Shown here in pieces: positions 506-16,704 of a stretch of DNA of 64,000 bases. The notes beneath the pieces are model-generated. The model ran no database searches. It had not been told where the DNA came from and saw only the letters and a program-made list of their open reading frames with translations. This DNA is from Clostridiales bacterium (lineage in GTDB: Bacteria > Bacillota_A > Clostridia > Oscillospirales > Oscillospiraceae): contig DXTB01000001.1 in NCBI GenBank assembly GCA_019410105.1, positions 186,001-250,000 on the forward strand. The letters are read 5' to 3'. A program made the position numbers and the translations under genes. Each line of letters begins with the position of its first letter. The first letter of the stretch is position 1.

Positions 506-1840
506 ATGAGTGTTTATGAGGAATATCAGAAAAAACTTGTCACAGCGGAAGAGGCTGTGAGACTTGTTAAGGACGGCGACTGGGTGGACTATAGCCAGAC
601 CTGCTCCTTTCCCGAGGCCCTGGATGCCGCTCTGGCCGCCCGGAAGGGGCAGCTGAGGGAGATCAAGGTCCGCAACGCCATTGCCATGAAGCCTATTCAG
701 GTGGTGGAGCGGGATCCGGAGCATGAGACGTTTATTTACAATGCGTGGCACTGCTCCGGCCTGGATCGCAAGTATGTGGACAAAGGCTGGGCCTATTATT
801 CTCCAATGCTGTTTCGGGACTGCGGCTCCTATTACAGCCGGGGATACGCGCCGGTAAATGTGGCTATGATTTCCGTGGCCCCCATGGACAAGCACGGGTA
901 TTTCAGCTACGGCCTGACCAACTGCTGTATGCAGGAGATGCTGGACGCGGCGGAACACATTATTTTGGAAGTTAACGAGCATATGCCGGTCATTTACGGA
1001 TCAGAGGGGGATCACATCCACATCTCCGAGGTGGATTGTGTAGTGGAGGGCCACAAGGACATCTGCCTGGCTCCCGGCGGCAGCGCCAGCGAGATTGATA
1101 AGCAGATCGCGGCCAATATTTTCCCCTACCTCTACGACGGGATCACGCTGCAGATCGGTATCGGCGGTATGCCAAATGCCTTGGGGGGGCTTATTGCGGA
1201 ATCGGATCTTAAGGATCTGGGTATGCATACGGAGCTGATGAGCGACGGGTACCTGAAGCTCTATCAGGCGGGCAAAATCACCAATAAGAAGAAAACGCTC
1301 AATCGGGGCAAGGGCGTATTCTCCATCTGCTCCGGGTCCCGGGAACTGTATGAGTTCCTGGATCAGAACATGGACATTTTGTCCGCGCCCATGCGGTATG
1401 TGAACAATCCGGAGACCATCCGGCAACTGGATCACTTTGTGTCCATCAATGGGTGCATTGCTATGGATCTGTACGGGCAAGTTTGCTCCGAGACCTCAGG
1501 TACCCGCCATATCAGCGGAACTGGGGGGCAGCTGGACTTTGTCACCGGTGCGTACATGGCAGAGCATGGACAGGCATTTTTGGCCATGCCTTCCACTTTT
1601 ACGGATAAAGAGGGCGTAAAGCACTCCCGGATTCTACCCAAATTTACAGACGGTGATGTCATTACCACGCCACGGACTCAAGCCCCCACTATGGTTACAG
1701 AGTACGGGACAGCGCGTCTTTCCGGGTTATCCACCTGGGAGCGGGCGGAGAAGATTATCGCCATTGCCCACCCGGATTTCCGGGAGGAATTGATTGCCGC
1801 TGCACAGCAGCAGAAGATCTGGCGTAGATCGAACAAATAA
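506..1840 (+). CDS. Acetyl-CoA hydrolase/transferase family CoA-transferase (4-hydroxybutyrate or butyrate:acetate type)
   Basis: 444 residues, the usual length for family I CoA-transferases of the butyryl-CoA:acetate and 4-hydroxybutyrate CoA-transferase group. The motif LGMHTELMSDG near residues 238-248 carries the glutamate (about E243) that forms the covalent CoA-thioester in this family, and GTGGQLDFV near residue 340 matches the conserved CoA-binding loop. GIGGMPNALG near 218-227 is the other family signature. It should move CoA between acetyl-CoA or a similar donor and a carboxylic acid in the cytoplasm. AGGAGG lies 8 bp upstream of the ATG. It sits between an MFS carrier and an aspartate-dehydrogenase-like gene, so the acid may be a product of that pathway. 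The exact acid is unknown. Confidence 0.85.
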   Translation: MSVYEEYQKKLVTAEEAVRLVKDGDWVDYSQTCSFPEALDAALAARKGQLREIKVRNAIAMKPIQVVERDPEHETFIYNAWHCSGLDRKYVDKGWAYYSPMLFRDCGSYYSRGYAPVNVAMISVAPMDKHGYFSYGLTNCCMQEMLDAAEHIILEVNEHMPVIYGSEGDHIHISEVDCVVEGHKDICLAPGGSASEIDKQIAANIFPYLYDGITLQIGIGGMPNALGGLIAESDLKDLGMHTELMSDGYLKLYQAGKITNKKKTLNRGKGVFSICSGSRELYEFLDQNMDILSAPMRYVNNPETIRQLDHFVSINGCIAMDLYGQVCSETSGTRHISGTGGQLDFVTGAYMAEHGQAFLAMPSTFTDKEGVKHSRILPKFTDGDVITTPRTQAPTMVTEYGTARLSGLSTWERAEKIIAIAHPDFREELIAAAQQQKIWRRSNK

Positions 1841-1874: not shown

Positions 1875-2624
1875 ATGAAGAAAGTTTGCCTTGCAGGCTG
1901 CGGCAGGCTGGGACATGTCATTGCCGACGGCCTGATGGCAGGTAAAGTGCCGGGTGCAGAGCTGACCGCTGTTCTGGTTCAAACAGCGGAGAAGCTTCAA
2001 GCGGAGCTGGGGTGCCTGGTTACAACAGATCTGCAAGACTTGCTGTCGGCAAAGCCGGCATATGTCATTGAGTCAGCGGGAAATGGAGTGGTGAGACAGA
2101 TAACCGTTCCGGTGTTGGAGGCGGGGGCGGATTTGATCGTTTTGTCTACCAGTATCTTTGGAGAGTCTGCGTTTTATGACCAGGCAAGGGCCGCAGCGAC
2201 AAGATACGGCCGACAAATTCATCTGGCCCATGGCGTCATTGGGGGATTGGATGTCGTTGAAACGGCTGCTATGATGGGGGAGGTTACTGCCGGACTGACA
2301 AAGCGGAAATTTTCAAAGGGCTCTGCCAGGAGCGACGCGGCGCTGGATGCCCTGGCGGACGAGTTTCACGCAACAGCGGCAGAAGCGATGGAGCAGTATC
2401 CGGATCAATTGAATGTGGCAATTTCTCTCGCTTTAGCCGCCGGAAATCTGGAGAGGACAGAGGTTCATGTTTCTCCAGCAGAGATGGTAGACTTCACTAT
2501 AAGGTGCGATGGCATATTCGGCGAGGCAGCCTTTTATACGCGATTGGGAGATTCGGGTCCGGATTTGGCGGCGTGGAGCGCTCTTGCAATGCTTCGCAGG
2601 CTCACATCCCCGATCGTTTTCTGA
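1875..2624 (+). CDS. Aspartate dehydrogenase-like NAD(P)-dependent enzyme
   Basis: The start is the ATG at 1875, preceded by AGAAGGGAGA; a longer frame upstream overlaps the CoA-transferase and has no family similarity. The 249-residue protein begins with a Rossmann NAD-binding motif (GCGRLGHVIADGL). It carries the L-aspartate dehydrogenase signatures ESAGNGVVRQ, the loop IVLSTSIFGE, HGVIGGLD near residue 120, and PDQLNVAISLALAAGN near residue 180. Family members interconvert aspartate and iminosuccinate/oxaloacetate with NAD(P)H, and one branch (NadX) feeds NAD synthesis. Here the neighbours are a CoA-transferase and a convergent operon for amino or dicarboxylate use, so a catabolic role on an aspartate-like substrate is more likely than NAD synthesis. 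No nadA or nadC homologue is visible in the window. Confidence 0.8.
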   Translation: MKKVCLAGCGRLGHVIADGLMAGKVPGAELTAVLVQTAEKLQAELGCLVTTDLQDLLSAKPAYVIESAGNGVVRQITVPVLEAGADLIVLSTSIFGESAFYDQARAAATRYGRQIHLAHGVIGGLDVVETAAMMGEVTAGLTKRKFSKGSARSDAALDALADEFHATAAEAMEQYPDQLNVAISLALAAGNLERTEVHVSPAEMVDFTIRCDGIFGEAAFYTRLGDSGPDLAAWSALAMLRRLTSPIVF

Positions 2625-2706: not shown

Positions 2707-3432
2707 TCAGTTCTCCGCATATGGTTTCCGGCCCAATAAACCAAGACCGGGCAGGGGTGCCCGATATCCGATGCGGCGCAGGGCGTACCAGATAGTGGCT
2801 TGATTGCTGGTGAGAACAGGAAGGCCTGTGGCTTTTTCCAGGGGCTCCACCAATTCCACTGCGGAGATTCCTGTGCAACTTATAAACAGTGCGTCCGCTC
2901 CGGAGAGATCCTGCGCCAAGGCAAGCTTGTAAAATTCCTCGGGCTGGACGAAGGGAAGAACCGTGGTGTCTTCAATGCCCAACCCCTGGATGGCCGCGGT
3001 CTCATAACCTGCTGAGGCCAGGAAATTCACCTCCAGCGTATTGAGCGCATCACTGTATGGAGTTACGATGACCACCTTTTTCACGCCAAGGAAGGAGAAA
3101 GCTTTCATCAGAGCTGTACTGGTGGTGATGGCCGGGATACCGCTGACTTCCCCCATCTGGCGGATCAAGGTTTCGTCAAAGCCGGGTCCCCCCACCATGC
3201 TGCCGGTGGTGCAGGCGAATACCAGAAGATCAAAGGGAAAACCGCGGTACATGGCGGCGTAAGTCTTTACCTGATCCGACATTTGGGAAAGGCCGTTCAG
3301 TGTTACGCGCTGATAGGGAAGCGCCGCGGTAGCCAGAGCCATGCCTTCGGGCAGATATCTGTGAAAATCCATCTCTGTGGATGGCGTGATGCCTGGCCGA
3401 ATCAGACCAATTCGACCTTTATCACCATACAT
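2707..3432 (-). CDS. Asp/Glu racemase-fold protein, maleate isomerase/arylmalonate decarboxylase family (two Cys)
   Basis: 241 residues, typical for the aspartate/glutamate racemase superfamily branch that holds maleate cis-trans isomerase and arylmalonate decarboxylase. Both catalytic cysteine positions are filled: C74 in VFACTTGS and C186 in LFISCTGIS. The N-terminal RIGLIRPGITPSTEMDFHRY and C-terminal VLTSNQATIWYALRRIGY blocks also fit. Two cysteines favour isomerase or racemase chemistry over the one-Cys decarboxylase. It is the last gene of the minus-strand operon, 9 bp after a paralogue without either cysteine, and is followed by the shared terminator. The likely substrate is a dicarboxylate or 2-substituted malonate taken up by the TRAP system encoded upstream; this is inference. 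Confidence 0.82.
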   Translation of the reverse strand: MYGDKGRIGLIRPGITPSTEMDFHRYLPEGMALATAALPYQRVTLNGLSQMSDQVKTYAAMYRGFPFDLLVFACTTGSMVGGPGFDETLIRQMGEVSGIPAITTSTALMKAFSFLGVKKVVIVTPYSDALNTLEVNFLASAGYETAAIQGLGIEDTTVLPFVQPEEFYKLALAQDLSGADALFISCTGISAVELVEPLEKATGLPVLTSNQATIWYALRRIGYRAPLPGLGLLGRKPYAEN

Positions 3433-3441
3433 AAAAACACC

Positions 3442-4188
3442 TCATTTAATGTGATGATAGGGTTTTGCGTTGAAAATCCAACCTAAGGCGGGAATTGGCT
3501 GATAGCAGTCCAGATATTCCAGCGCATATAAAAGGGTAAACTGCTCAGACAAAAGAAGAGGAATTCCGAGCGCCTGTTCAACAGCCGGGATGTTATCTGG
3601 AACCTGCAGACCCGAGGCGCCGAGCAGCAGTACGTCTGAACCGGAGCGCTTCAAAGCTTCTGTGTCAACCTGCTTCCAGATGTGTGTCCACTCCAGTTCT
3701 TGAATTTCCCGAATGGACTGGCAGGCTTTCCCGTCTGGACATACAATCTGTTTACTATAAGAAATATCCACGCCTTGCCGGTGCAAAGTGGCTCTAAAAA
3801 GGAGATTCAATTCTTCCTGATATGGTGTCAGCAGGGCCAGCCGGTTGAGGTGAAACCGCTTCAACAAATTGACCAAAGCCACAAGGGAAGTAATGCAGGG
3901 AATTCCGATACGCTGCTCCACACAGTTTTGCAGCATGGCATCCCGAAAACAGCCCAGCGTCAGACTACTGGAGATCAGGATGTCCGGTTCGGCGTGGCAC
4001 AGGTCTTCCGCTGCCTGTTCCGTTTGCGGGAGCATCTCCTCCAGCGTTTTTACAGACAGCCTGTTCAGGGCGATACGGTTTGTTGCCACAGCGATCCCGG
4101 GCGGCGCAAAGCGATGATAGGTAGCTTCGATATTGACGTCAGAAGATGGAACAATCAGACCTACTGTTTTGGTATAGGGGCCTTGCAT
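3442..4188 (-). CDS. Asp/Glu racemase-fold protein lacking both catalytic cysteines
   Basis: The start is the ATG whose first base is 4188, with AGGAGA eight bases upstream; a longer frame reaches into dctM and is unlikely. The 248-residue protein has the same layout as its downstream neighbour (TKTVGLIVPSSDVNIEATYHR at the start, LSEQFTLLYALEYLD near the end). However, the first Cys position reads ILISSSLTLG and the second LLLGASGLQ, so neither catalytic cysteine is present. It may bind a related ligand without racemising it, or use different chemistry. It is a paralogue of the protein at 10137-10844, which has lost the same residues and sits by the regulator. Operon position is between dctM and the two-Cys homologue. 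Confidence 0.75.
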   Translation of the reverse strand: MQGPYTKTVGLIVPSSDVNIEATYHRFAPPGIAVATNRIALNRLSVKTLEEMLPQTEQAAEDLCHAEPDILISSSLTLGCFRDAMLQNCVEQRIGIPCITSLVALVNLLKRFHLNRLALLTPYQEELNLLFRATLHRQGVDISYSKQIVCPDGKACQSIREIQELEWTHIWKQVDTEALKRSGSDVLLLGASGLQVPDNIPAVEQALGIPLLLSEQFTLLYALEYLDCYQPIPALGWIFNAKPYHHIK

Positions 4189-4223: not shown

Positions 4224-5498
4224 TCAGGAACCCATCATCAAATTGGGTAGCCACAGAGAAAATTCAGGCACAAAGGCTATCAGGAGCATGCACAGGATCA
4301 GAATAATCAGATAGGGCATGGCGGCTTTTGACACATAGCCGAGACTGCGCTTGGTCATATTCATAGTCACAAACAGGTTCATGCCGAAAGGAGGTGTGAG
4401 GTAGGATACTTGGGCGGCCATGACGCAGATGATGCCAAAATGAATCGGGTCTACTCCATAGGAGGCCAGCGTGGGAGACAGGATGAGACCCAGAATGATC
4501 ATCAGCGCAACCAGCTCCATAAAGCAGCCTGCAACGAAGAAGATGCCCATGATGACTAGCAGGAACACGGTGGGAGAGGTAATGGTAGTCACGATCCAGT
4601 CGCTGATAATGGCAGGCAGGCGCTGGGTGGTGATAAACCATGTAAGAAGCTGGGAAGCAGAGATGATGAAGGTGATGCCTGCGGAATTGACCAGACTGTT
4701 TTTAAAGGCGTTGAATAAGTCCTTAAAGCTGGTGGTCCGGTAAACAAACAACTCTACCAGGATTACGTAAACAATAGAAATGGCGGCGGATTCGGTGGGA
4801 GTCGCCAGACCGCCATAGATGCTGCCCAAAATAATGACGGGATACAGCAGAGCGGGGATAGCCTTGAAGATGATTCCCTTAGCCTCGGAAAAGCTGTAGC
4901 GAATGGGCTTGCCGTACTTCTTGATAGAGCAGACCACATATGTATATACGCCCCAGGCCAGCGCCAGGATGAGGCCGGGGACTACACCGGCCATAAACTG
5001 CCGGCCGACAGAGGAGCCCAACGCCACGCACAGCGCGATCATGGGAGCACTGGGCGGGATCAGCACGCCGATAGAGCCGCCGGCGGTAATGCAGCCGATG
5101 GACATTTCATCTGGAAATTCCTGCTCCTTTAGGGAGGGGAGCATAATGCTGCCAATGGCCACAATGGTGGCAAAGGAGGAGCCGGAGATAGCGGCAAAAA
5201 ATGCACAGGCAGCAACGGCGGCGATCACGCTGCCGCCGCGCATACGGCCAAAGATGATGGTCATGACCTGGCACAGATATTTGGAAGTAGAGCCCCGGGA
5301 GGCAATGGTTCCAGAAACAATAAAGAAAGGGATTGCCAGAAGGACATAATTATTCAGGCCGCTGAACATCTGCTGGACCACAATCTGCAGCGGCGTACCG
5401 GAATAAAGAATGACGCCCAGAGTAGAGGCACCCAATACCACCATGGAGATAGGAATGCCCAGTAACAGCAGGACAAAAAACGCAACAATTACAATCAT
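4224..5498 (-). CDS. dctM: TRAP transporter large permease subunit (DctM family)
   Basis: 424 residues, the standard DctM length, with about twelve hydrophobic helices. It opens with a membrane segment ending in LGIPISMVVLGAST and includes the family blocks SGSSFATIVAIGSIMLPSL, GGSIGVLIPPSAPMI and ATPTESAAISIVYVI. DctM is the Na+ or H+ driven channel of tripartite ATP-independent periplasmic carriers for organic anions. Its start overlaps the end of dctQ by four bases, giving translational coupling. It belongs to the minus operon led by the MmgE/PrpD gene and should import the substrate of those enzymes. Confidence 0.95.
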   Translation of the reverse strand: MIVIVAFFVLLLLGIPISMVVLGASTLGVILYSGTPLQIVVQQMFSGLNNYVLLAIPFFIVSGTIASRGSTSKYLCQVMTIIFGRMRGGSVIAAVAACAFFAAISGSSFATIVAIGSIMLPSLKEQEFPDEMSIGCITAGGSIGVLIPPSAPMIALCVALGSSVGRQFMAGVVPGLILALAWGVYTYVVCSIKKYGKPIRYSFSEAKGIIFKAIPALLYPVIILGSIYGGLATPTESAAISIVYVILVELFVYRTTSFKDLFNAFKNSLVNSAGITFIISASQLLTWFITTQRLPAIISDWIVTTITSPTVFLLVIMGIFFVAGCFMELVALMIILGLILSPTLASYGVDPIHFGIICVMAAQVSYLTPPFGMNLFVTMNMTKRSLGYVSKAAMPYLIILILCMLLIAFVPEFSLWLPNLMMGS

Positions 5499-6019
5499 GT
5501 GGCGGATCCTCCTTCCTGGGTGGTTACATCAGGGAGAGCAGCCTTTCCGGCCAGTGATTTTACGTTGCAGATCACAAGGTACAGATAGCGGATGCCGGCC
5601 ACCAGCATCCCCAGTGGGATGATGAGATAAGGAACATACATGGGGATAGGCACGGAAGATGCCATAGAACCGGTGGAAATCATCCGCAGGATCTGCTGAT
5701 AGCCGTAGAAAGCTACCAAAAACGAAAGAGCGGCACAGAACAGGTTGCCGATAAACAGCACGGCGTACCGGGGCTTATTGTGAAGGGCATCAGTCACAGC
5801 GGTCATTTTGGGGTGCTGGCCTGTTTCAATGGCAATGCTGGCGCCTAGGAAGGTGCTGAATACAAAGATATAGCGGCTGAGTTCCTCCAGCCAGGCAAGA
5901 CCGCTGTCCAAAAAGGCGCGCATAAAAATGTTGACGACAATACAGATGCAGAGGAACGCCATAGGAAGTACCAGTAAGATATACTCCAATCGGCGAAACC
6001 ATTCAAGTGCTTTTTTCAT
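5495..6019 (-). CDS. dctQ: TRAP transporter small permease subunit (DctQ family)
   Basis: The start is the ATG at 6019, preceded by GGGAGG in the mRNA; the frame runs further upstream without family similarity. The 174-residue protein has four hydrophobic helices and the DctQ hallmark LAWLEELSRYIFVFSTFLGA, where the aromatic-Glu-Glu stretch follows helix 2. It forms a complex with DctM in the membrane. It is separated from dctP by 112 bp containing a GC-rich hairpin and overlaps dctM by four bases. Confidence 0.93.
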   Translation of the reverse strand: MKKALEWFRRLEYILLVLPMAFLCICIVVNIFMRAFLDSGLAWLEELSRYIFVFSTFLGASIAIETGQHPKMTAVTDALHNKPRYAVLFIGNLFCAALSFLVAFYGYQQILRMISTGSMASSVPIPMYVPYLIIPLGMLVAGIRYLYLVICNVKSLAGKAALPDVTTQEGGSAT

Positions 6020-6131: not shown

Positions 6132-7202
6132 TCAGCCGCGCAGGGCGTCGATTTTGTTACAGACCAGTTCGTACACCGCGGGATCAATCTGAGGGACGTA
6201 AGTGTCGTAAACGGAGGAGGTGGCGTCCTTAAAGGCCTGGAACTCCGCATCGGTCAGCTCCGTGATCTCCACGCCGGCCTCCTCAGCGGACTGGATGGAA
6301 GCGTCCAGCTGCTCATGGATAAAGTCCAAATAACCGTCGCCCCAATTGGCCTCGGCGGTTTTGATGGCATCCTGCTGCTCAGGGGAGAGTCTGTTCCACA
6401 CCTCGGTGCTGATCAGCAGGGGATTGCTCTGGATCATGTGGTTGAGGACGGTGTGATATTTTTCCACTTCGGCAAACTTCATCTTTGTCAGCATATCGGC
6501 TCCGTTGTCCTCAGCGTCGACAACGCCCTGCTGCAGGGCAGAGTAAACCTCGGAGAAGGCCATGGTAGAGGGGACGGCACCCAGAGCTTCAAAGGTATCG
6601 ACGTAGATGGTGCCGGCCTGGATGCGGACCTTCTGACCAGCAATATCGGCGGGAGTGCGGACGGTGTGCTGGGTATTGGAGTAACCGCGGGATTCGCCAG
6701 AGGAGAATCCAATCAGGGTGATACCCTTGCTGTTCATGATCTCATTTGCTTTGGCGGTCACCTCTGGATCTCGGGCCACATTAATGAATTCATCAATATC
6801 GCTGAAGAGGAAGGGCAGGCAGAAGGCATAGAAGTCCGGCAACATGGTGGCGATCTCATTGCAGCCGACCATGGCCATCTCCAGCGTTCCGTTGGACAGA
6901 CCATCCAGCATGACGACGGCGTCACCCAGCTGAGACTGCGGATACACTTCAATGAGAACCGCACCGCCGGTGGCTTCCTTGATTTCGTCTGCCATGGTCT
7001 CAGCGGCGATCTGCAAAGAGGACGCGGGAGGCCCCACATGCCCCAGTTTCAGGGTAATGGGGTTTTCTGCGGTGGGATAGTCGGCCTCCTGGGCGGATGT
7101 ACCGGCTTCACCGGAATTTCTGGAGGAGTCGGCGCCGCCTCCGCAGGCGGCAAGAGTCAGAACCAGTGCCAGCGCGAGACAAAGTGAGACAAGCTTTTTC
7201 AT
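6132..7202 (-). CDS. dctP: TRAP transporter solute-binding protein (DctP family lipoprotein)
   Basis: 356 residues. The N-terminus is a lipoprotein signal with lipobox LTLAACGGG (Cys near residue 20), so the mature protein would be tethered outside the single membrane. The body follows the DctP pattern: LKLGHVGPPASSLQIAAETM at the start, VYPQSQLGDAVVMLDGLSNG, and the central VRIQAGTIYVDTFEALGA holding the conserved arginine that salt-bridges a substrate carboxylate. The family binds dicarboxylates, 2-oxo acids, sugar acids or amino acids. The linked enzymes favour an amino- or dicarboxylic acid here. A good GAAAGGA site precedes the ATG. Confidence 0.93.
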   Translation of the reverse strand: MKKLVSLCLALALVLTLAACGGGADSSRNSGEAGTSAQEADYPTAENPITLKLGHVGPPASSLQIAAETMADEIKEATGGAVLIEVYPQSQLGDAVVMLDGLSNGTLEMAMVGCNEIATMLPDFYAFCLPFLFSDIDEFINVARDPEVTAKANEIMNSKGITLIGFSSGESRGYSNTQHTVRTPADIAGQKVRIQAGTIYVDTFEALGAVPSTMAFSEVYSALQQGVVDAEDNGADMLTKMKFAEVEKYHTVLNHMIQSNPLLISTEVWNRLSPEQQDAIKTAEANWGDGYLDFIHEQLDASIQSAEEAGVEITELTDAEFQAFKDATSSVYDTYVPQIDPAVYELVCNKIDALRG

Positions 7203-7243: not shown

Positions 7244-8317
7244 TTACAGGGAACCCTCCTGAAGGAACTGGTTGATCTGCTCCGCATTCATTCCAGACAT
7301 GCCCAGCTTTTCCAGTGTGCGGCCGCTGGCATAATAATCGCTGCCGTTAATGGCAGAGGCCACGGTGACAAAGGCGCGGGCCAGAGGCGCGGACAGACCC
7401 ACAGCATCGGCCAGAGAGGAAAGGAACGTGGCGCCGTTCTGGGCATCCTCGAAGATGTAACGGTCCTGCATGGTCAGGGGACCCTCCAGACTGCGGAAAC
7501 CGTTGAACTGCGGGAACTGCTCCTTGTCGGACAGCTGCTTCATAAAGCCGACAGAGGAGCGGACTGTGTAGCCAAGCTTTTCAGAGATAGCGTCCCGCTC
7601 ACTGCCCAAGGTTTCGATCACTTTCAGAACAGAGGGAGTCAGGCCCTGATCATAGAAGCAGAAGTTTTCCGTACGTTCCACAGCCCCGGTATTCAGAATG
7701 GAGCCGCCCAGGTGAACAATAATATTGGAGGCATTGAGCGTGGTCTCAAAGACGTTGACTGCGGGGATGCACTTGTAGAACTCGCCGATGACCGCGCAGA
7801 GCTTTTCGGTGTCTTTTGCAGGGAAAGCGGCGATGGTCTTGGGCTTGCCGCCGGGCATGCCGATAAAACCGGTGGCGTTGGGACGGATACGGCAGGGGAA
7901 CATGTTGCCTTCCAGTTCGCCCACCACTATATCAGCAGTGCAGTTTTGAGCCTTCATGACCTGACGCAGGATGATAGAGCCGCAGCTGCCGGCAGAGAAC
8001 AGGATGGTCTGCCCGTCTTTCAGATAGGGAACCATGGCACTGGCCAGCGCCTCGTGGCGGGTGGAGAGAGCAGTAACAAAAATAACCTCTGCTCCGGAGA
8101 CAGCCTTCTGGAAATCGCGGGTTACTTCTGCAATCTCAGCATAACCGGTGGTAGCAAGACCCGTCAGCTCGAAGCCGCCGCGAGCTTTGATGGCGGCGAT
8201 ATTTTCATCGCACCAGCCTTCCTGCTCGCACAGAGTGACCTGATGACCCAGAAGAGTCAGCTCAGCGGCAGTGCAGCAACCAGTGCCGCCCGCCCCAATG
8301 ACAGTGATTTTCCTCAT
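7244..8317 (-). CDS. NAD/NADP octopine/nopaline dehydrogenase family protein
   Basis: 357 residues. The N-terminus RKITVIGAGGTGCCTAAELTL is a Rossmann motif with the GxGxxG pattern. The middle has the family stretch EVIFVTALSTRHEALASAMVPYL and the C-terminal all-alpha domain carries NIIVHLGGSILNTGAVER. This last block matches the HP(G/A) region of opine dehydrogenases (octopine, nopaline, ketopantoate-reductase-like fold), with HLGG where HPGP-like residues are usual. Such enzymes make or cleave N-(carboxyalkyl) amino acids using NAD(P)H. Its place between dctP and the MmgE/PrpD gene points to oxidative cleavage of an opine-like or secondary-amine dicarboxylate. That substrate is inferred, not shown. 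Confidence 0.8.
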   Translation of the reverse strand: MRKITVIGAGGTGCCTAAELTLLGHQVTLCEQEGWCDENIAAIKARGGFELTGLATTGYAEIAEVTRDFQKAVSGAEVIFVTALSTRHEALASAMVPYLKDGQTILFSAGSCGSIILRQVMKAQNCTADIVVGELEGNMFPCRIRPNATGFIGMPGGKPKTIAAFPAKDTEKLCAVIGEFYKCIPAVNVFETTLNASNIIVHLGGSILNTGAVERTENFCFYDQGLTPSVLKVIETLGSERDAISEKLGYTVRSSVGFMKQLSDKEQFPQFNGFRSLEGPLTMQDRYIFEDAQNGATFLSSLADAVGLSAPLARAFVTVASAINGSDYYASGRTLEKLGMSGMNAEQINQFLQEGSL

Positions 8318-8376
8318 GACAAAACGCTTCCTTTCTTTGTTTGCTGAATAGATCTGAATGGTTGATCTGCAGGGAA

Positions 8377-9759
8377 TCAGTGGAGAATTTCGCCAATGTG
8401 GGACATGTCGTCCATGTTTTCGATATTCCGCAGGGTATCCAGAATCTCTTCGGCCCTTTCGGGGGTCAGGGCGTTGCGGGTCTGGACACGGAACCGCTCA
8501 CATACCTCATCCATAGTCATCTGGTTCTTGGGATGGCCCTTGGGATAGTTGCAGGAGCGAGTCAATACACGACCGTCTTTGCACTTGACAGTGATGGTCT
8601 TGTCCACAAAGTCGCCGTCCTGGAAGGTGTTGAAGGATACCTGAAGATCCTGCTCGTCAGAAGGGCCGGGCCTGACCTTGCTGGCCAGAGCCAGCAGTTC
8701 GGGGGCGTGCATCCGTTCGGCGGTGTACCACTGGGCGCCGGGGGTGGGATCCAGCAGCAGGGCTGCAATACAGTAGGGAATGCTGTACTGAGCCTCGATG
8801 ATCTTCTCATAGCCCTCAGGACGCAGGGTCATGCGCATCTGAGTGGGGGGATCTACAATAATTTCATCAATGTTGTCTGCGGTGATTCCGTCCTCTTTCA
8901 TAAAAGCATCCATGATATCCAATGAGGCCTGAACCCACATGTTGGTGGGCCAGTGCTTTAGGAGCGTATCCATAATCAGATAACGGGTGCCCAGATCCTT
9001 TTGGTACCATTTGATCTCCTGTGCGGAAACTAGGTGGTGCTGTCCGAAGCCGTTTTCGCCATCAAAAGCGCCGGTCATACCGTCCACTCCGTGCTCAGCC
9101 AGCATGGCGCTAAGGACGCCGTCCTGTGCGCAGAAGCCGTGCTGATAGTGATAGATGTTAGACATGGTAAAGTGGACCAGGCTGTTGGGAACAGCCATCA
9201 GAACAGCGGCAATGCCGAGGGCCTGCTCATACTGCTCAGCCGTCAGATCCATCATCTTTGCCGCGGGAGCGCAGCTGGCGAAAATCTGCCAGCTGGTCAG
9301 GCCCCATCCGATGTTAGCTTTGAACCCTCTAGGAGGTTGGATTACCATGGCGATCCGCTGGTAGACTTCAAAGCCGGCAACGATCGCAGTCAAAAAGTCT
9401 TTGCCGGATTTCCCTCTCGCCTCGGCCAGTGCCAACGCCGCAGGAACAAGGCCGGCAGAAGGATGACCGGTCCAACTGCAGTCTTCCCAGTCAATATTAT
9501 CGGAGATGATACTGTTCGCAAATACAGCACCCAATAGAGAGGTTTTTCTGCCGTCGAGCATCAAAGTGGCATCTGCCGGACCGCTGCTGTACTTTTTGGA
9601 AAAGTCCAGGACGCTTTGGGTAAAATCCATTTCTTTGCTGGCTAAAGCGGCGCCGATGGTCTGAATAGCCATTTTTTTGGCCATCTCAATGACTTCGGCG
9701 GGAATATCTTCATATTTCAGATTAACCGCAAACTGGGAAAGGGCTGCGCTGTTGTTCAT
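8377..9759 (-). CDS. MmgE/PrpD family protein
   Basis: The ATG at 9759 has AAGGAGG nine bases upstream; an upstream extension would run through the sigma-54 promoter and is rejected. The 460-residue protein matches the MmgE/PrpD family in length and in blocks DNIDWEDCSWTGHPSAGLVPAALALAEA, where the His-Pro dipeptide follows the acidic stretch, and the helical RGKSGKDFLTAIVAGFEVYQRI. Characterised members include 2-methylcitrate dehydratase, cis-aconitate decarboxylase and iminodisuccinate epimerase. The last acts on an aspartate-derived amino-dicarboxylate and would fit the aspartate-dehydrogenase-like and opine-dehydrogenase-like neighbours, but the sequence alone cannot decide. It is the first gene of the sigma-54 operon. 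Confidence 0.85.
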   Translation of the reverse strand: MNNSAALSQFAVNLKYEDIPAEVIEMAKKMAIQTIGAALASKEMDFTQSVLDFSKKYSSGPADATLMLDGRKTSLLGAVFANSIISDNIDWEDCSWTGHPSAGLVPAALALAEARGKSGKDFLTAIVAGFEVYQRIAMVIQPPRGFKANIGWGLTSWQIFASCAPAAKMMDLTAEQYEQALGIAAVLMAVPNSLVHFTMSNIYHYQHGFCAQDGVLSAMLAEHGVDGMTGAFDGENGFGQHHLVSAQEIKWYQKDLGTRYLIMDTLLKHWPTNMWVQASLDIMDAFMKEDGITADNIDEIIVDPPTQMRMTLRPEGYEKIIEAQYSIPYCIAALLLDPTPGAQWYTAERMHAPELLALASKVRPGPSDEQDLQVSFNTFQDGDFVDKTITVKCKDGRVLTRSCNYPKGHPKNQMTMDEVCERFRVQTRNALTPERAEEILDTLRNIENMDDMSHIGEILH

Positions 9760-9788
9760 GAAAACAACCTCCTTCAAATTTCCTGACT

Positions 9789-9803
9789 TGCACAACGTGT
9801 GCA
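9789..9803. promoter_or_regulatory. Palindrome in the 5' leader of the MmgE/PrpD operon
   Basis: TGCACA-ACG-TGTGCA is a perfect 6-bp inverted repeat lying between the sigma-54 promoter and the ribosome binding site of the MmgE/PrpD gene. It may be an operator or a small leader hairpin. A second AT-rich dyad (AGTTT...AAACT) lies further upstream, around 9871-9885, where an activator site would be expected. Confidence 0.45.
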
Positions 9804-9817
9804 CACTGCCCAATTTA

Positions 9818-9834
9818 AGCAAAAAATGTGCCAA
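9818..9834 (-). promoter_or_regulatory. Sigma-54 (-24/-12) promoter of the minus-strand operon
   Basis: Read on the minus strand the site is TTGGCACATTTTTTGCT. It has the invariant GG and GC exactly ten bases apart and matches the consensus TGGCAC-N5-TTGC at every key position. It is about 60 bp upstream of the MmgE/PrpD start codon and faces that gene. A sigma-54 activator gene is divergent, 1 kb away. The rest of the 377-bp gap (9760-10136) is AT-rich and non-coding, suitable for enhancer binding and looping. Confidence 0.88.
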
Positions 9835-10136
9835 TATGAATATCATGGAAACACAAAGGAAATTAGTTTATAAAAAACTAGTAATTGTGCTTAAATTCTG
9901 CCGGCAAAGATTGTGGAAAAATTCATTAAGATTTCGCTCCATGAAGCAAAAAACAGCCGAAAAACAAAAAAGAAATTTTCTTCAAACACCGTTGATGCTT
10001 AAAAGCTGTAAGAATATCAAAAACCACGTCGTTTTCAACAAAAATTTGACAAAACATATTCACCATGTTATAAAGAGTGTAAAACACTGGGAACAATCGC
10101 CGCAATAAGTATTAAGAGAGATCAGGATAGTACTAT

Positions 10137-10844
10137 ATGGGATACGAAAAACAGATAGGGATCATTGTCCCGTCATCGGGAATTGTTACGGAAATGGTGT
10201 TTCACCGATATGCGCCTGTCCACATCGGGATCTCGACTGCGCGTGTGAAATTTAACTATGTGTCCTTTTCCGGACTGAGTGATATGATGGATTTGGTCAG
10301 TGTAGCGGCTTCTGACCTTTGCTGTGTTGAGCCGAATATCATTGTTTTCAGCAGCATTATGGCCGGGGCTATCAATGGAAAGTCGATTGCCAACATTATT
10401 GAACAGTCTTCAGGAACGCCATGCATTACGGGATTTTACGCCCTTTTGGAGGCGGTGAATGCCTTGGGGGTCCGGCGGCCCCTGGTAATTTCACCGCACA
10501 TTGAGGAGCTGAATCTTGTCTTTAAGCGGAAAATGCTTCAAAACGGCGTGCATGTAGCAGAAATCCGGCGGCTTTCCCGGCTGGAGTTTGGAAGCAGCAT
10601 CCGCATGATGGAGCAAATTACTGTCGAGGATATCATCGAGTCCATGCATGATGCGGATCTTAGCCATTCTGATGCGGTGATTTTGAACGCTGCATGTATG
10701 CCGGGGATTGAACGATTGAGGGAGCTAGAGCTGCGTTTGAGAAAGCCTGTCCTTCAGGGAGATCAGGTTTCCCTTTGGAGCGCCTTGCGCGCAATTGGGG
10801 ACACTACCAGGATCCCTGAACTGGGGCGGATATTTGAGGTATAG
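10137..10844 (+). CDS. Asp/Glu racemase-fold protein without catalytic cysteines, probable partner of the adjacent regulator
   Basis: 235 residues with the arylmalonate decarboxylase/maleate isomerase layout (KQIGIIVPSSGIVTEMVFHRY at the start, LQGDQVSLWSALRAIGD near the end). Both catalytic cysteine places are changed: FSSIMAGAI at the first and ILNAACMPG at the second, where the Cys is displaced by two residues. It is thus likely to bind a ligand rather than turn it over. It ends four bases before the GTG start of the sigma-54 activator, so the two are co-translated. That activator has no sensory domain of its own. An inducer-sensing role for this protein is my inference. The ribosome binding site (AGAGAG) is weak. 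Confidence 0.72.
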   Translation: MGYEKQIGIIVPSSGIVTEMVFHRYAPVHIGISTARVKFNYVSFSGLSDMMDLVSVAASDLCCVEPNIIVFSSIMAGAINGKSIANIIEQSSGTPCITGFYALLEAVNALGVRRPLVISPHIEELNLVFKRKMLQNGVHVAEIRRLSRLEFGSSIRMMEQITVEDIIESMHDADLSHSDAVILNAACMPGIERLRELELRLRKPVLQGDQVSLWSALRAIGDTTRIPELGRIFEV

Positions 10845-10848
10845 GCCA

Positions 10849-12180
10849 GTGGAAATCAATAAGAAGTTATCCAGGCGTGAACGTGTATATCTGCAGCTTG
10901 CTGAAATGACGCAGCAGATCACGATGAATCGCATCGACCACTTTGATTTCAAGGAATACGATGCAACAGGTATTGGAAAGTGCCTAAATATCACCATGAA
11001 CAACACCTGTATGGAGTTGAATTCCCTGGTGAAAGACGGACTGGTGGTGAAGATACTTGGCCGTCCTGTTTATTTTTTTGCCAGGGAAGAGTTGGCGCAG
11101 GTTACAGGTGTCAGACTCCCCCAGTGTATCTGGGAAAACTACGCGCAGTTTAGAGAGGCACTCAATGCGCCGGAAATTGTCCAGAGGGAGGAGGGCTTTC
11201 AGACTGTTGAAACGGATGCTGCTTCCAAGGCGGCGCTGGGCACCAGTTTTTCCAGATTCGTGGGGGCGGATCAAAGTTTGAAGAAGTGTATCGATCAGGC
11301 CCGGTCCGCTATTTTATATCCCCCTAATGGACTGCATACCCTGATTATTGGTGAAACCGGCACCGGCAAGTCGTATTTTGCAGAGGCAATGTATGATTTT
11401 GCCGTGGAAACAGGAATGGTAAACAAAAACACAAAGTTTGTCATTTATAATTGTGCCAGCTATTCAGAAAACCCCCAGCTGCTTCTTTCCCAGCTCTTCG
11501 GCTACAAAAAAGGGGCCTTTACAGGGGCTGACAGGGAGTGTCCAGGTATTATTGATCAGGCCGATGGAGGGGTATTGTTTTTAGATGAAGCGCATCGTCT
11601 CTCGCCGGAGGGACAGGAAAAGATGTTTTTGCTGATTGACAAAGGAATCTTTCAGCGGCTCGGCGAAACACAGAATTATCGAAAAGCGGCTATCCGGATT
11701 ATTGCTGCTACTACAGAAGACCCCCAAAATGCACTGCTTTCTACATTTCTGCGTCGTATTGCAGTAGTCATAAATATTCCTCCGCTGGAAAAGAGAAGCT
11801 TTGATGAAAGGGTTCGGTTTGTATTTCGGTTCCTTTGGGACGAATCCCGCAATATTGGAAAGAATTTTCAGGTGGATTTGGAAGTGATTAAGGCACTGGT
11901 ACTGTATAAGTGCCCGGGAAACATCGGACAGCTGCGGGGAGATATTCGCTGCTTGTGTGCGAGCGCCTATCTTGAATATTATTACCAGAAAAAATCCGAG
12001 GGGATTTCCGTTGAACTGACACATTTGCCGGACAGCGTTGAGCGGGGGCTGTGTGATGTAAACTTTTCAGGAAATGCGTTATTTCAGCGCTATGAATTTT
12101 TCCAGCAGACCTACACAGTAATTGATGCGGAAAAGGGAGGATATGAGGAGTTAGCCCGGCTTGTGAAACGGGCGGTCTGA
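10849..12180 (+). CDS. Sigma-54-dependent transcriptional activator, LevR-like, short form
   Basis: The GTG at 10849 is chosen as start because GAGG lies nine bases upstream and it directly follows the preceding stop. An N-terminal winged-helix of LevR type (residues about 10-75, ending LVKDGLVVKILGRPVYFF) is followed by an AAA+ domain. That domain has Walker A GETGTGKS near residue 168, the sigma-54 contact loop GAFTGA near 222, and Walker B VLFLDEAH near 243. LevR-type proteins usually continue with PRD, EIIA and EIIB domains to 800-950 residues; this one stops at 443, soon after the AAA+ lid. It is either a natural minimal activator or a truncated one; the 1.9 kb that follows shows no clear PTS domains. 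It is the obvious candidate to drive the promoter at 9818-9834. Confidence 0.88.
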   Translation: MEINKKLSRRERVYLQLAEMTQQITMNRIDHFDFKEYDATGIGKCLNITMNNTCMELNSLVKDGLVVKILGRPVYFFAREELAQVTGVRLPQCIWENYAQFREALNAPEIVQREEGFQTVETDAASKAALGTSFSRFVGADQSLKKCIDQARSAILYPPNGLHTLIIGETGTGKSYFAEAMYDFAVETGMVNKNTKFVIYNCASYSENPQLLLSQLFGYKKGAFTGADRECPGIIDQADGGVLFLDEAHRLSPEGQEKMFLLIDKGIFQRLGETQNYRKAAIRIIAATTEDPQNALLSTFLRRIAVVINIPPLEKRSFDERVRFVFRFLWDESRNIGKNFQVDLEVIKALVLYKCPGNIGQLRGDIRCLCASAYLEYYYQKKSEGISVELTHLPDSVERGLCDVNFSGNALFQRYEFFQQTYTVIDAEKGGYEELARLVKRAV

Positions 12181-12858
12181 AAAAATATAAAGGAAGTTTC
12201 CCAAAGAGAAGGGGGCGTAAAGTGATATCCTGCCTTGTCAAACAGATGCTGCTTTATACGGGAGAGCAGATCGATTGATGGTCTGCCACATAATTTCACA
12301 GGGCCGACAGTGGATCTATCAGAAAGGGTTGGACAAAGGTACATAGACTTTGCGGATTTTTTGCCTGTGAGTGCAGGGAAACCGTATGTTATTGAGAAGC
12401 GGAGCGGGTGCAATTCTATTTCTGTCCGGAACACAGAACCTCCTTTTAACGGGTTTGCGAACTACGGGCGCTGCTGCTTTGGAGCGCTATATAGCTATCC
12501 CGGTGCCACAGGGCGGGGAGCGTGAAGCGACGATGCGCTGTACATCTATTCTACAGTTCTGAAGGCACTGCCTGCGATTTCATGGCAACGCTGGCGGTGT
12601 TGCCGGGGCTGTTTTTTCGGATGCTGGCATAGGCATTGACGTTACCCGTCATCAGATGTCCTCCTGCCTCTTTGCGAAAGGTTCGGCTGATGCTCGGCGC
12701 TCTTTTTTCGCTTATCGGAGTCAGGGACTATCAGCCCACAACGCTCACCCGACCGCAGAGCAGCAGTCGGCTTTATACTATAGACTATAGAAAAAGTCAT
12801 GCCGGATTAGCTTCTCTTCCACTGCAATCAGAAAAGTGACCAGATGTTCGTCAGCTAG

Positions 12859-13011
12859 AACGCAATGTCATTAAGTTAAGAGCCGGGGCGAATACCCCGG
12901 TTCTTAACTTTCACTTTTTTGGGCGTTTTTCCGCAAGTTGCACGAAATAAGTTGCTGTTTTTGCGCTCTCCTATCAGAAAACGCGTAACTCAATGAAATT
13001 GCGTTAGAACA
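12859..13011. repeat. Imperfect inverted repeat, possible insertion-element end
   Basis: GAACGCAATGTCATTAAGTT at 12859 is repeated in inverse orientation around 12987-13011 (TAACTCAATGAAATTGCGTT) with only a few changes. About 105 bp lies between, including a strong terminator hairpin. This is what a MITE or the stranded end of an insertion sequence would look like. No transposase frame is intact next to it. Confidence 0.45.
12875..12920 (+). terminator. Intrinsic terminator in the decayed region
   Basis: A 14-bp stem (12875-12888 with 12895-12908, one G-T pair) with a CGAATA loop is followed by TTTCACTTTTTT. It is a good terminator for plus-strand transcripts, perhaps of the lost gene upstream. 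Confidence 0.8.
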
Positions 13012-14117
13012 TACACTGTTTTTGCGTAATCTGGGTGGCATGATCGGATGGATTGTTCAGAGGAAGTCACTGCACTGACCCAGGTCTCAGAGCATGACAG
13101 GATGTGGTGTGGATGCACCATGGACGGCAGTGGAGGAGTGTTCTCGGCTCTGGACAGGGCGGGATGTACACGGCCCCGCTCTTTGTGGGTATCATAATAA
13201 TTTTCTTGAATCAGCGTCGGTGTCCTGGAAGAGCTTTTCTGATCTGAACGGGGCTTGACATTGTGCTCCAGGTTACTGTGACAGTGGTTTAAAGCGCCAG
13301 GGTGGAGGACTGGGATTTGTTTCGACCGCTTTGAATAGTGGCGTTCCGCACGGCTCTGTTTGGATTCACGCCCTGGCAGGCGGTGATGTTTTGGCGGAGT
13401 TTAGCTGTCAGTTCCTCTCGGGTATCGGCTCGGAGCTACCGCTGTCTTACGACTGATGACAGTGCACCCCTCCTGCCAGCTATTTTCAACTTGCGTACCA
13501 TGCCGTCCGTCACCGGATGGCTTTCTTTTTATCATGGTCGTTCTCGCCTCCGGGATTTAATTTTGAATTGGCATTGCAGGGATTGCGTGGCCTGTCAGTT
13601 CGTTGCCGCCAGCAACACAAATACCGTAGAGACAGAAAACAGCCGCGGCAGATGCGTGCGGTTAGTCGAGAAGTTCACAACTTCGGGCGGAACTGTAATG
13701 GGATCGTAAACGCGTCGATGGCCCCTTGTGAATCTCCTCCGAAAATTTTGGCTTTAGCGGGACTATGGGCAGTGTTTGTCTATTCCGGCTACCTACAAGC
13801 CCCGCTCCTGAAAGACTGCAACTCAGCGCACCGCCCGCATATTTTTCCGTGTGATGTAAGCGCCACTGTGACTCATCTGCGCCATCATCGCCGCACACAA
13901 CGGCCCACAGGCCGCTTGCCTGATGGTTTGCTTTGCCACGTGCTGCCGCGAATTCCAGCTGTTCCGGCTGGCGATGATAGTGCCGGTTTACTGCCGCCGG
14001 AATCGGCTGGAGGGTGCGGTCCAGATTCCCCATTGCTTTTTCTCCGGTCTTGTTGTCTCCGGCATGAACGCCTTTTCGCGGACATAGATTCTACCATCGA
14101 AGCAAAGGGGGATCACC

Positions 14118-15239
14118 ATGAAAAAACTCGTCGTGCTGCTGTGCGCCCTGCTGGCGCTGGGGAGCAGTGCCCAGGCGCTGGAAGTATCCGCGCCCTCGGC
14201 TCTGCTGATGGAAAAGGAGACGGGCACCGTCCTCTTCGCCAAGGACGAACATGCCAAGCTGGAGCCCGCCAGCGTCACCAAGGTCATGACGCTGCTGCTG
14301 ACCATGGAGGCCATCGACGCCGGACAGCTCCACTATGACGACGTGGTCACCGCGTCGGCCCACGCCTGCTCCATGGGCGGCAGCCAGATCTGGCTGAAGG
14401 AAAATGAGCAGATGACGGTCAGCGATATGCTGAAGGCGGTGTGCGTTGTCTCTGCCAACGACTGCGCCGTGGCGCTGGCGGAGACGGTGGCCGGCAGCGA
14501 GGAGGCCTTTGTGGAGCGAATGAACCAGCGGGCCGCGGAGTTGGGCATGGCCGATACCCACTTCTGTAATGCCACCGGCCTGCCGGCGGAGGGGCATGTC
14601 ACCTCCGCATACGACATCGCCCTTATGAGCCGGGAACTGATCCGAAACCACCCGGACATCCGCCAGTACACCACCATCTGGATGGATTCCCTGCGGGACG
14701 GGGCCTCCTCCCTGGTGAACACCAACCGCCTGATCCGCTTCTACCAGGGAGCCACCGGCCTGAAGACCGGCTCAACAGACAGTGCGCTGTACTGCCTCTC
14801 TGGTACGGCCGAGCGGGACGGCATGGAGCTGATCGCCGTCATCATGAAGGCACCAACCTCCACCCAGCGGTTTGAGGATGCCACCAATCTGCTGAACTAT
14901 GGCTTTTCCACCTACACGCTGGAGAATGTGGTGCCGGAGTCCGCCCTGCCGCCGGTGCCCGTGTCCCTGGGGACCCAGGCCACAGTGCAGCCGGTGCTGG
15001 GGGAGAACACGCACCTCCTACTGGAAAAGACCAAGGCGGGCAGCCTGCAGCAGCTGGTCACCCTGGCGGACTCTGTGGAGGCGCCGGTGGCGGCGGGCAG
15101 TCAACTGGGGACTCTCACCATCACCTCCGGGGAAGAGGTCGTGGCGGAGCTGCCCATCCTGGCAGGAGAGGAGATCCCACGGGTCACCTTCGGCCAGATG
15201 CTGGTCCAGATGCTGCGGACGGCCTTCCTCTGCGGCTGA
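14118..15239 (+). CDS. D-alanyl-D-alanine carboxypeptidase (DacF/PBP5-like, serine type)
   Basis: 373 residues with an N-terminal signal peptide ending near SSAQA. All three penicillin-binding motifs are present: SVTK (catalytic Ser52), SAN at 112-114 and KTG at 216-218. After residue 270 comes the small beta domain typical of PBP5-type enzymes, and the last 15 residues (FGQMLVQMLRTAFLCG) are hydrophobic enough for membrane anchoring. It trims the last D-Ala from peptidoglycan stem peptides outside the cell. AAAGGGGG precedes the ATG. The next gene, pgi, has its own promoter, so this is probably a single transcription unit. Confidence 0.93.
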   Translation: MKKLVVLLCALLALGSSAQALEVSAPSALLMEKETGTVLFAKDEHAKLEPASVTKVMTLLLTMEAIDAGQLHYDDVVTASAHACSMGGSQIWLKENEQMTVSDMLKAVCVVSANDCAVALAETVAGSEEAFVERMNQRAAELGMADTHFCNATGLPAEGHVTSAYDIALMSRELIRNHPDIRQYTTIWMDSLRDGASSLVNTNRLIRFYQGATGLKTGSTDSALYCLSGTAERDGMELIAVIMKAPTSTQRFEDATNLLNYGFSTYTLENVVPESALPPVPVSLGTQATVQPVLGENTHLLLEKTKAGSLQQLVTLADSVEAPVAAGSQLGTLTITSGEEVVAELPILAGEEIPRVTFGQMLVQMLRTAFLCG

Positions 15240-15295
15240 CGGCGGCGGGGGGCGCTGCGCCCCCTGAAATCCCGGCGGATTGCGACCGCTTTCCC

Positions 15296-15324
15296 TTGTG
15301 TCCCGTTTCGGAGCATGGTATAAT
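15296..15324 (+). promoter_or_regulatory. Sigma-A promoter of pgi
   Basis: TTGTGT (15296-15301), a 17-bp spacer and a perfect TATAAT (15319-15324), 42 bp before the pgi start codon. Confidence 0.82.
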
Positions 15325-15366
15325 AAAGCAACAAACCCGCGCAGCTTTACGAAAGAGAGGCCGGTC

Positions 15367-16704
15367 ATGATGCTGGATGTCAAATCGTTCCAATTACAGT
15401 CTTTTCTGCCCCTGCCCTATGAGGAGGTCCTGGCGCCGCGGCTGAAGCGGGCCCATGAGAAGCTCCAGAGCGGCAGCGGTGCCGGCGGAGAGTTCACCGG
15501 CTGGGTCCATCTGCCCCGGGACTATGACCGGGAGGAGTTCGCCCGCATCCAGGCGGCCGCGTCCCGGATCCGGGCCAACTCCCAGGCCCTGGTGGTCATC
15601 GGGATCGGCGGCTCGTACTTAGGCGCCCGGGGTGTCATCGACTGCCTGCGCTCTCCCAATTACAACCTGAAGCGCAAGGATACGCCCAACATCTACTTTG
15701 TGGGCAACGGCCTTTCCTCCGACGCCATGGGGGAGGTGCTGGACCTGGTGGCGGACGTGGATTTCTCCGTCAACGTGATCTCCAAGTCGGGCACCACCAC
15801 CGAACCCGCCGTGGCCTTCCGCTTCTTCCGGGCGGCCTTGGAGAAGAAGTACGGCCGGGAGGGTGCCCGGGAGCGGATCTACGCCACCACGGACAAGGCC
15901 CGGGGCGCCCTGAAGTCCCTGGCGGACAGCGAGGGATGGGAGACCTTCGTGGTCCCCGACGACGTGGGCGGCCGATACAGCGTGTTGACCGCCGTGGGCC
16001 TGCTGCCCATTGCCGTGGCCGGGGTGGATATCACCGCCCTGATGCAGGGAGCGGCGGAGATGATGGAGACCTGCACCGAGGCTTCCTTCCGGTGCCCTGC
16101 CTGGCGGTACGCCGCCATCCGGTACGAGCTGTACCGGGCGGGCCGGTCCATTGAGCTCTTGGCCTGCTATGACCCGGCGTTCCGGTTCATGGCGGAGTGG
16201 TGGAAGCAGCTCTTCGGCGAGAGCGAGGGCAAGGAGGGCAAGGGCCTCTTCCCCGCCAGCGTGGAGTTCACCGCGGACCTCCACTCCATGGGCCAGTACA
16301 TCCAGGAGGGCAAGCGCCTGATGTTTGAGACCGTGGTGCGCCTGGGTCCCTCCGACCGACAGCTGACAGTCCCGGCGGACGAGGCGGACGGCGACGGGCT
16401 GAACTTCCTGGCGGGCAAGTCCCTGGACTTCATCCGGGATCGGGCCATGGAGGGCACCCTGCTGGCCCACACGGAGGGCGGCGTGCCCAACCTGATCGTG
16501 GAGACCTCCGGCAGGACGCCGGCAGACCTGGGGCAGCTGATCTACTTTTTCGAGTACGCCTGCGGCCTCTCCGGCTATCTGCTGGACGTGAACCCCTTCG
16601 ATCAGCCGGGGGTGGAGGCCTACAAGAAGAATATGTTCGCCCTGCTTGGCAAGCCGGGCTATGAGGACCGGCGGGCGCAGCTGGAGAGCAAACTGGAGGG
16701 GTGA
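15367..16704 (+). CDS. pgi: Glucose-6-phosphate isomerase
   Basis: 445 residues, matching the Gram-positive form. The start is the first of two adjacent ATGs, with GAGAGG upstream. Family motifs are [19 protein letters not shown] near residue 75, the sugar-phosphate binding [17 protein letters not shown] near 140, [16 protein letters not shown] near 200, and [30 protein letters not shown] carrying the catalytic Glu near 280. It interconverts glucose-6-phosphate and fructose-6-phosphate in the cytoplasm. It has a clear promoter and stands alone between the carboxypeptidase and a small P-loop gene. Confidence 0.97.

Follow-up and report, generated by a model that had tools for sequence, protein, structure and literature searches.

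A short LevR-type sigma-54 activator and an adjoining cysteine-less AMDase-fold protein: a candidate two-gene switch beside a divergent TRAP operon

The divergent locus and its promoters

The window, which is the whole 64-kb stretch of Clostridiales DNA analysed here, contains two + strand genes with 4 bases between the stop of the first and the start of the second (Table 1). The first encodes an arylmalonate decarboxylase (AMDase)-fold protein without catalytic cysteines, hereafter the pseudoenzyme, and the second a sigma-54 activator whose GTG start was picked by comparison with relatives. The pair sits outside an MmgE/TRAP operon and on the opposite strand. In Oscillibacter sp. 1-3 (locus L001) the whole divergent locus is collinear with the window, and 6 bases separate the pair.

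Table 1. Genes and promoters of the locus, in window positions
Feature	Position	Strand	Remarks
Acetyl-CoA hydrolase/transferase-type gene	506-1840		Other end of the locus
Aspartate-dehydrogenase-like gene	1875-2624		Other end of the locus
AMDase-fold enzyme	2707..3432	-	Both Cys intact
Second AMDase-fold protein	3442..4188	-	Without both Cys
DctM, TRAP large permease	4224..5498	-	
DctQ, TRAP small permease	5495..6019	-	Start picked by us
DctP, TRAP substrate-binding protein	6132..7202	-	
Octopine dehydrogenase-like protein	7244..8317	-	
MmgE/PrpD family enzyme	8377..9759	-	First gene of the divergent operon
-24/-12 sigma-54-type promoter	9818..9833	-	TGGCACATTTTTTGCT; directed towards the MmgE/TRAP operon; single C-to-G difference in L001
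Sigma-70-like promoter before the pair	10046..10074	+	TTGACA-N17-TATAAA; read by eye, as was its L001 counterpart
AMDase/maleate-isomerase-fold pseudoenzyme	10137..10844	+	235 aa; S73 and A185 at the catalytic Cys columns; proposed trans sensor
PRD-less LevR/DagR-type sigma-54 activator	10849..12180	+	443 aa; DagR-like N-terminal region, AAA+ with GAFTGA, short C-terminal tail

The exact pattern TGGCAC-N5-TTGCW occurs once in the 64 kb, before MmgE, where 0.18 occurrences are expected, and at least one occurrence arose in 17 of 100 shuffles. Sites with one mismatch show no excess in the window (six found, 7.09 expected), and L001 has four where 2.45 are expected. The match alone is not significant, and the site at 9818-9833 draws its weight from where it lies and how well it is conserved: at the same place in L001, in an intergenic region that has otherwise diverged, 26 of the 27 bases of the block ATATTCATATTGGCA[C/G]ATTTTTTGCTT are identical. 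The sigma-70-like promoter before the pair is missing from our promoter scan, which requires the -10 hexamer to end in T. With a -24/-12 site before the operon and a sigma-70-like promoter before the pair, it is the catabolic operon, rather than the pair, that looks dependent on sigma-54.

Both G001 and the L001 genome encode the DNA-binding domain of a sigma-54 factor. The window and L001 intergenic regions yielded no common UAS or enhancer motif; the 13-mers common to both, allowing at most one mismatch, are the ribosome-binding site, the sigma-54 block and one further match to that block.

An AMDase-fold protein without its catalytic cysteines

The pseudoenzyme matches Pfam Amdase (PF17645) at 52.4 bits, above the cut-off of 25.9, which places it in the maleate isomerase/AMDase fold. 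It falls below the NCBIfam equivalog cut-offs for both EutA (73.4 bits, cut-off 318) and AMDase (51.7 bits, cut-off 225). Known members of this group are enzymes with catalytic cysteines, whereas here neither column holds a cysteine and the gene is encoded with a regulator. We aligned 21 rows, consisting of the window protein and 20 of 24 protein-search matches; those left out were P0121 (the same sequence), the fragments P0141 and P0143, and P0016, whose reading frame runs from pseudoenzyme into activator, probably through a frame error in a sequence of the same species. The first catalytic column is Ser73 in all 21 rows, and the second, which is Ala/Thr185, or Ala/Ser186 by profile alignment, is Cys in none. 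These counts agree with the sequence-only reading, in which the enzyme-fold protein four bases upstream of the activator had lost both catalytic cysteines. Two observations count against a clean loss, namely C187, which lies one or two residues beyond the second column in 20 of the 21 rows (absent from P0142), and a Cys at residue 72 of P0139, adjoining the first column. These residues may allow some unusual catalysis by the pseudoenzyme.

Compared with its L001 counterpart, the pseudoenzyme is 74% identical, with a dN of 0.18, a saturated dS of 2.2 and no stops; the activator has a dN of 0.15 and a dS beyond computing. Thus, the pseudoenzyme is not decaying but evolving under purifying selection. 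Mean entropy in the aligned rows is 0.30 at 41 cleft-loop positions, which we picked on secondary structure and homology rather than on coordinates, and 0.83 at the other 194; when the pattern is shifted circularly, 1 of 234 shifts equals this conservation. The low entropy of the cleft loops suggests that the ligand cleft has been retained although the catalytic residues are lost. The Asn that binds maleate in the isomerases aligns with Gly15, so the alignment does not name the ligand.

A protein of this kind could be a pathway enzyme or subunit that uses non-canonical residues, with the activator either constitutive or sensing something else. Structural relatives of the 235-aa protein are enzymes, Cys187 is nearly universal in the alignment, and related clusters carry AMDase-fold genes in tandem, all of which would fit such a role. 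However, the gene adjoins the regulator, outside the operon and across the sigma-54-type promoter from it, the operon already has a Cys-intact paralogue (2707-3432), and both catalytic columns are non-Cys throughout the alignment, and we thus regard an enzymatic role as improbable.

Within the window the nearest relative of the pseudoenzyme is the Cys-less protein of the operon, encoded at 3442-4188, with which it groups on the tree (100/97; 32% identical); it is 28% identical to the Cys-intact 2707-3432 protein. This join may be false, as long branches meet there and the 3442-4188 branch is among those flagged. The Cys-less operon protein is itself conserved in Oscillibacter sp. 1-3 (L001 3302-4051, - strand; 70% identical). 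The two operon-borne Cys-less proteins apart, both cysteines are present in all 17 AMDase-fold rows that lie with MmgE or octopine-dehydrogenase-like genes.

A short LevR-type activator and its clade

Pfam finds only Sigma54_activat (140.5 bits) and other AAA-type models in the activator, and no PRD, EIIA or EIIB. Its best NCBIfam match is DagR, at 366.8 bits where the cut-off is 1400, and the alignment spans only profile positions 2-372 of 938. The sequence-only reading likewise had the protein end after its AAA+ domain. LevR and DagR are class II enhancer-binding proteins in the classification of Francke et al. 2011 (PMC3162934, as excerpted). The window activator has the same N-terminal region and an AAA+ domain with GAFTGA, but it is without the C-terminal PRD and PTS EIIA/EIIB domains, belongs to a short clade of its own, and has no PTS beside its gene in either the window or L001. 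Among four LevR-type relatives that we scanned, PRD was found in all four and EIIA in three.

Alignment to the DagR model starts at residue 8 of the activator, and the N-terminal region is helical in the predicted model, with no Pfam HTH match. HTH_8 in particular had no Pfam match at E <= 0.001, in a scan that did find it in another activator (L063). Neither Pfam nor NCBIfam places a sensor domain in the protein, which is thus an AAA+ activator without a signal-recognition domain, as in the PspF type. The AAA+ core is followed by a lid and then a tail of roughly 60 residues. The predicted model has a mean pLDDT of 87.8 and a pTM of 0.67, with residues 110-128 below 50.

Some tail positions are conserved (12 of the 36 in 385-420 are invariant across 15 rows), and the input to the activator could therefore lie elsewhere, in this tail, in a PTS protein acting in trans or in the 3442-4188 paralogue, with the adjacent pseudoenzyme as an accessory. 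That the paralogue is the nearest relative of the pseudoenzyme in the window would fit as well, but the gaps of only 4 bases in the window and 6 in L001 favour the neighbouring gene as the partner. We consider an input elsewhere highly improbable.

The short form could also reflect a recent truncation of a full-length LevR protein, as the sequence-only reading had allowed. A protein search scored 7995 candidates of at most 775 aa, and from the best 120 of 2033 matches we took 108 (12 under 400 aa were dropped) together with 20 other sequences for a FastTree phylogeny of 128 rows. One clade (support 0.938) contains 67 activator rows of 418-456 aa and none longer, including near-copies (window with P0001, L001 with P0004); its fork from the sister rows has a support of only 0.565. 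Eleven rows of at most 480 aa fall outside this clade, and several of them seem, on inspection by eye, to be truncated within PRD-like helices. In a tree of 61 rows, 14 pair-type activators form one branch (100/100) and 19 other short activators another (100/100), and the two short branches are united (100/98) apart from full-length types. For this tree we chose 19 short rows among the best 120 of 2033 matches; one of them, P0094, groups with the full-length proteins, and its end resembles a cut PRD. Searching downstream with tblastn (window 11900-14500 and L001 11800-13000; 17 long LevR-type queries, two of them identical) gave no remnant of a LevR C terminus better than E 0.1. The uniform clade and the absence of a remnant rule out, within these searches, a recent truncation or pseudogene, and the short activator is, on its phylogeny, an old and uniform type. 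About 2 kb past the activator (12181-14117) are without an obvious gene.

Six-frame searches of genomes, made without a length limit, returned mostly long proteins. In 300 family genomes there were eight matches in seven genomes, all in frames of at least 775 aa and 35-47% identical to the window activator, and no short activator at E <= 1e-40. Searches with P0049 gave matches in 5 of 400 and 4 of 222 genomes, and besides those in the genome of L001 itself they were frames of 775-958 aa, 45-49% identical to the query. Another search covered 391 genomes, of which 28 yielded 47 matches, 46 of these in frames of at least 665 aa. A short frame of 461 aa (G385, L063) was rejected as a comparison, as the next frame has PRD/EIIA-like sequence beside a mannose-type PTS; these frames (7471-8775 and 8896-10281, - strand) are a split LevR-like gene. 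The LevR-type activators of 418-456 aa without PRD form an unnamed family, mostly from metagenomes, and include P0049, which is named Intestinimonas butyriciproducens.

Recurrence of the pair and the proposed switch

Beyond Oscillibacter sp. 1-3, contigs of 33600, 25965, 56574 and 14631 are each the longest for one activator match and one pseudoenzyme match; linkage on these four is inferred from equal contig sizes, the contigs themselves being unseen. Thus, the same adjacent pair, which the sequence-only reading suggested seeking in other genomes, recurs, and its concern that the pair might not be conserved elsewhere is answered by the divergent locus of L001. A scan of genome contigs confirmed at least one pair locus among the 597 stretches listed, and the pseudoenzyme was found in none of 60 relatives. 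Of 81 genomes of the genus, P0049 matched two at E <= 1e-40, those of Oscillibacter sp. 1-3 and of L085, and each of them has a short activator. The pair is rare, so independent cases are few, and it is seen in DNA at two loci. Viral contigs yielded no relative of the pseudoenzyme and seven activator loci, the best of which (L092) has PRD-like sequence after its AAA+ part and the rest of which are weak; a plasmid search returned 207 records, all below 60% identity. A mirror-tree comparison gave a correlation of 0.77 over six presumed pairs, with 19 of 720 permutations as high, and shared descent alone would yield such a correlation.

The other short branch is represented in DNA by L085, whose activator is 434 aa long and terminates at a stop codon of its own, 16 bases short of the contig end. 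Divergent from it, at about 100 bp, is an AMDase-fold gene in which only the second Cys remains, and beyond this gene lie an octopine-dehydrogenase-like gene and then an amino-acid permease. Thus, an AMDase-fold gene adjoins the activator in both branches seen in DNA. A common pathway could account for these neighbourhoods without any sensor role, and the L085 neighbour, with one Cys kept, may simply be an enzyme. A protein search with it gave three proteins, none on a contig sized like that of a listed short activator, a weak comparison since the contig of L085 itself is absent among the best 120 of 2033 activator matches. One-mismatch -24/-12 sites in L085 number two where 0.81 are expected, which is not significant. 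A sigma-54-like site before its octopine-dehydrogenase-like gene (8255-8269, - strand) was set aside as a lead only, as it overlaps one arm of an inverted repeat, itself a possible terminator.

We think it fairly likely that the pseudoenzyme is a ligand sensor acting in trans, holding the AAA+ motor inactive until ligand binds. The pair would then be a two-gene sigma-54 switch, in which an activator from a LevR-type clade without the PTS-sensing C-terminal half would retain a putative N-terminal DNA-binding region and its AAA+ motor. The pseudoenzyme would bind a small acid, perhaps a substrate of the divergent TRAP/MmgE/octopine-dehydrogenase-like operon or an intermediate in its pathway. When ligand-free it would contact the motor and keep it inactive, as PspA does to PspF, and ligand binding would free the motor to open the promoter at 9818-9833. 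Truncated LevR forms can be competent by default. If the bare motor here is so too, the activator would need a partner, and the pseudoenzyme is the natural candidate because it is set close to the activator, is conserved in its cleft and lies outside the target operon. The suggestion of the sequence-only reading that an inactive enzyme fold serves as a sensor in trans is favoured by the recurrence of the pair, the age and uniformity of the short activator, the purifying selection on the pseudoenzyme and the -24/-12 site common to both loci.

The pseudoenzyme could instead be a sensor that acts as a ligand-dependent co-activator, and recurrence, lost cysteines and cleft conservation would be the same under either sign of control. 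Positive control in trans exists, as RtcA and RtcB are needed in trans for RtcR activation according to the relevant passages of PMC9650030. However, the same source, as far as excerpted, gives RtcR without its sensor domain as constitutively active in vitro, which by analogy with this other type of activator suggests that a bare motor needs restraint. We therefore judge co-activation rather unlikely, and continue with a ligand-relieved inhibitor as the preferred reading.

Control in trans of sensor-less sigma-54 activators is already known, as with PspF and PspA, and the view in the sequence-only reading of a wholly new type of sigma-54 pair narrows to this: a LevR-type activator with a dead-enzyme partner would be new. 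Francke et al. 2011 (PMC3162934, as excerpted) place PspF and HrpRS in class Ic, and their trans partners, PspA and HrpV respectively, are named in the excerpts of PMC9650030. Like them the window activator is without a sensory domain and is here proposed to have a trans partner; unlike them its putative DNA-binding region is N-terminal, it has no HTH_8 match, and the partner has an enzyme fold. The output of RtcR likewise depends on enzymes acting in trans, but in the account excerpted from PMC9650030 RtcR retains a CARF sensor domain, and RtcAB, encoded within the target operon, are enzymatically active. Nie et al. 2019 (PMC6615313), in its relevant passages, counts 490 activators in 57 Clostridiales species, of which 431 have an N-terminal regulatory domain, 48 have PRD and 11, like PspF, are without an N-terminal regulatory domain. 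A LevR-type activator without PTS domains is not named in the parts of PMC3162934 and PMC6615313 considered here, and we found no literature on such a pseudoenzyme-activator pair in the open-licence literature under a few wordings.

More tentatively, the arrangement might be clade-wide, with LevR-type activators having dropped their built-in PTS sensor and recruited AMDase-fold proteins from the catabolic pathway as separable sensors of metabolites; at this locus the 3442-4188 protein could feed back by competing for ligand or activator. The gene neighbourhoods of short-clade activators seen here are those of the window and two others. If the proposed switch holds, a catabolic enzyme fold has become a sensor of metabolites, detachable from the sigma-54 motor that it serves, and LevR-type activators can trade built-in PTS control for a partner protein. 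It would also offer a handle on the signals of the short-activator family and on the MmgE/octopine-dehydrogenase-like pathway apparently controlled here.

We know of no name for the pathway of the MmgE/PrpD, octopine-dehydrogenase-like and AMDase-fold genes. Around AMDase-fold matches, these genes, with the AMDase-fold genes often in tandem, occur together in 10 of 13 stretches (L071-L073, L075-L079, L081 and L082), two of them with TRAP genes; the 13 stretches come from 9 of 300 genomes searched. Near one such cluster, L081 carries a 667-aa sigma-54 activator of another type (14602-16605, - strand) instead of a short LevR-type one.
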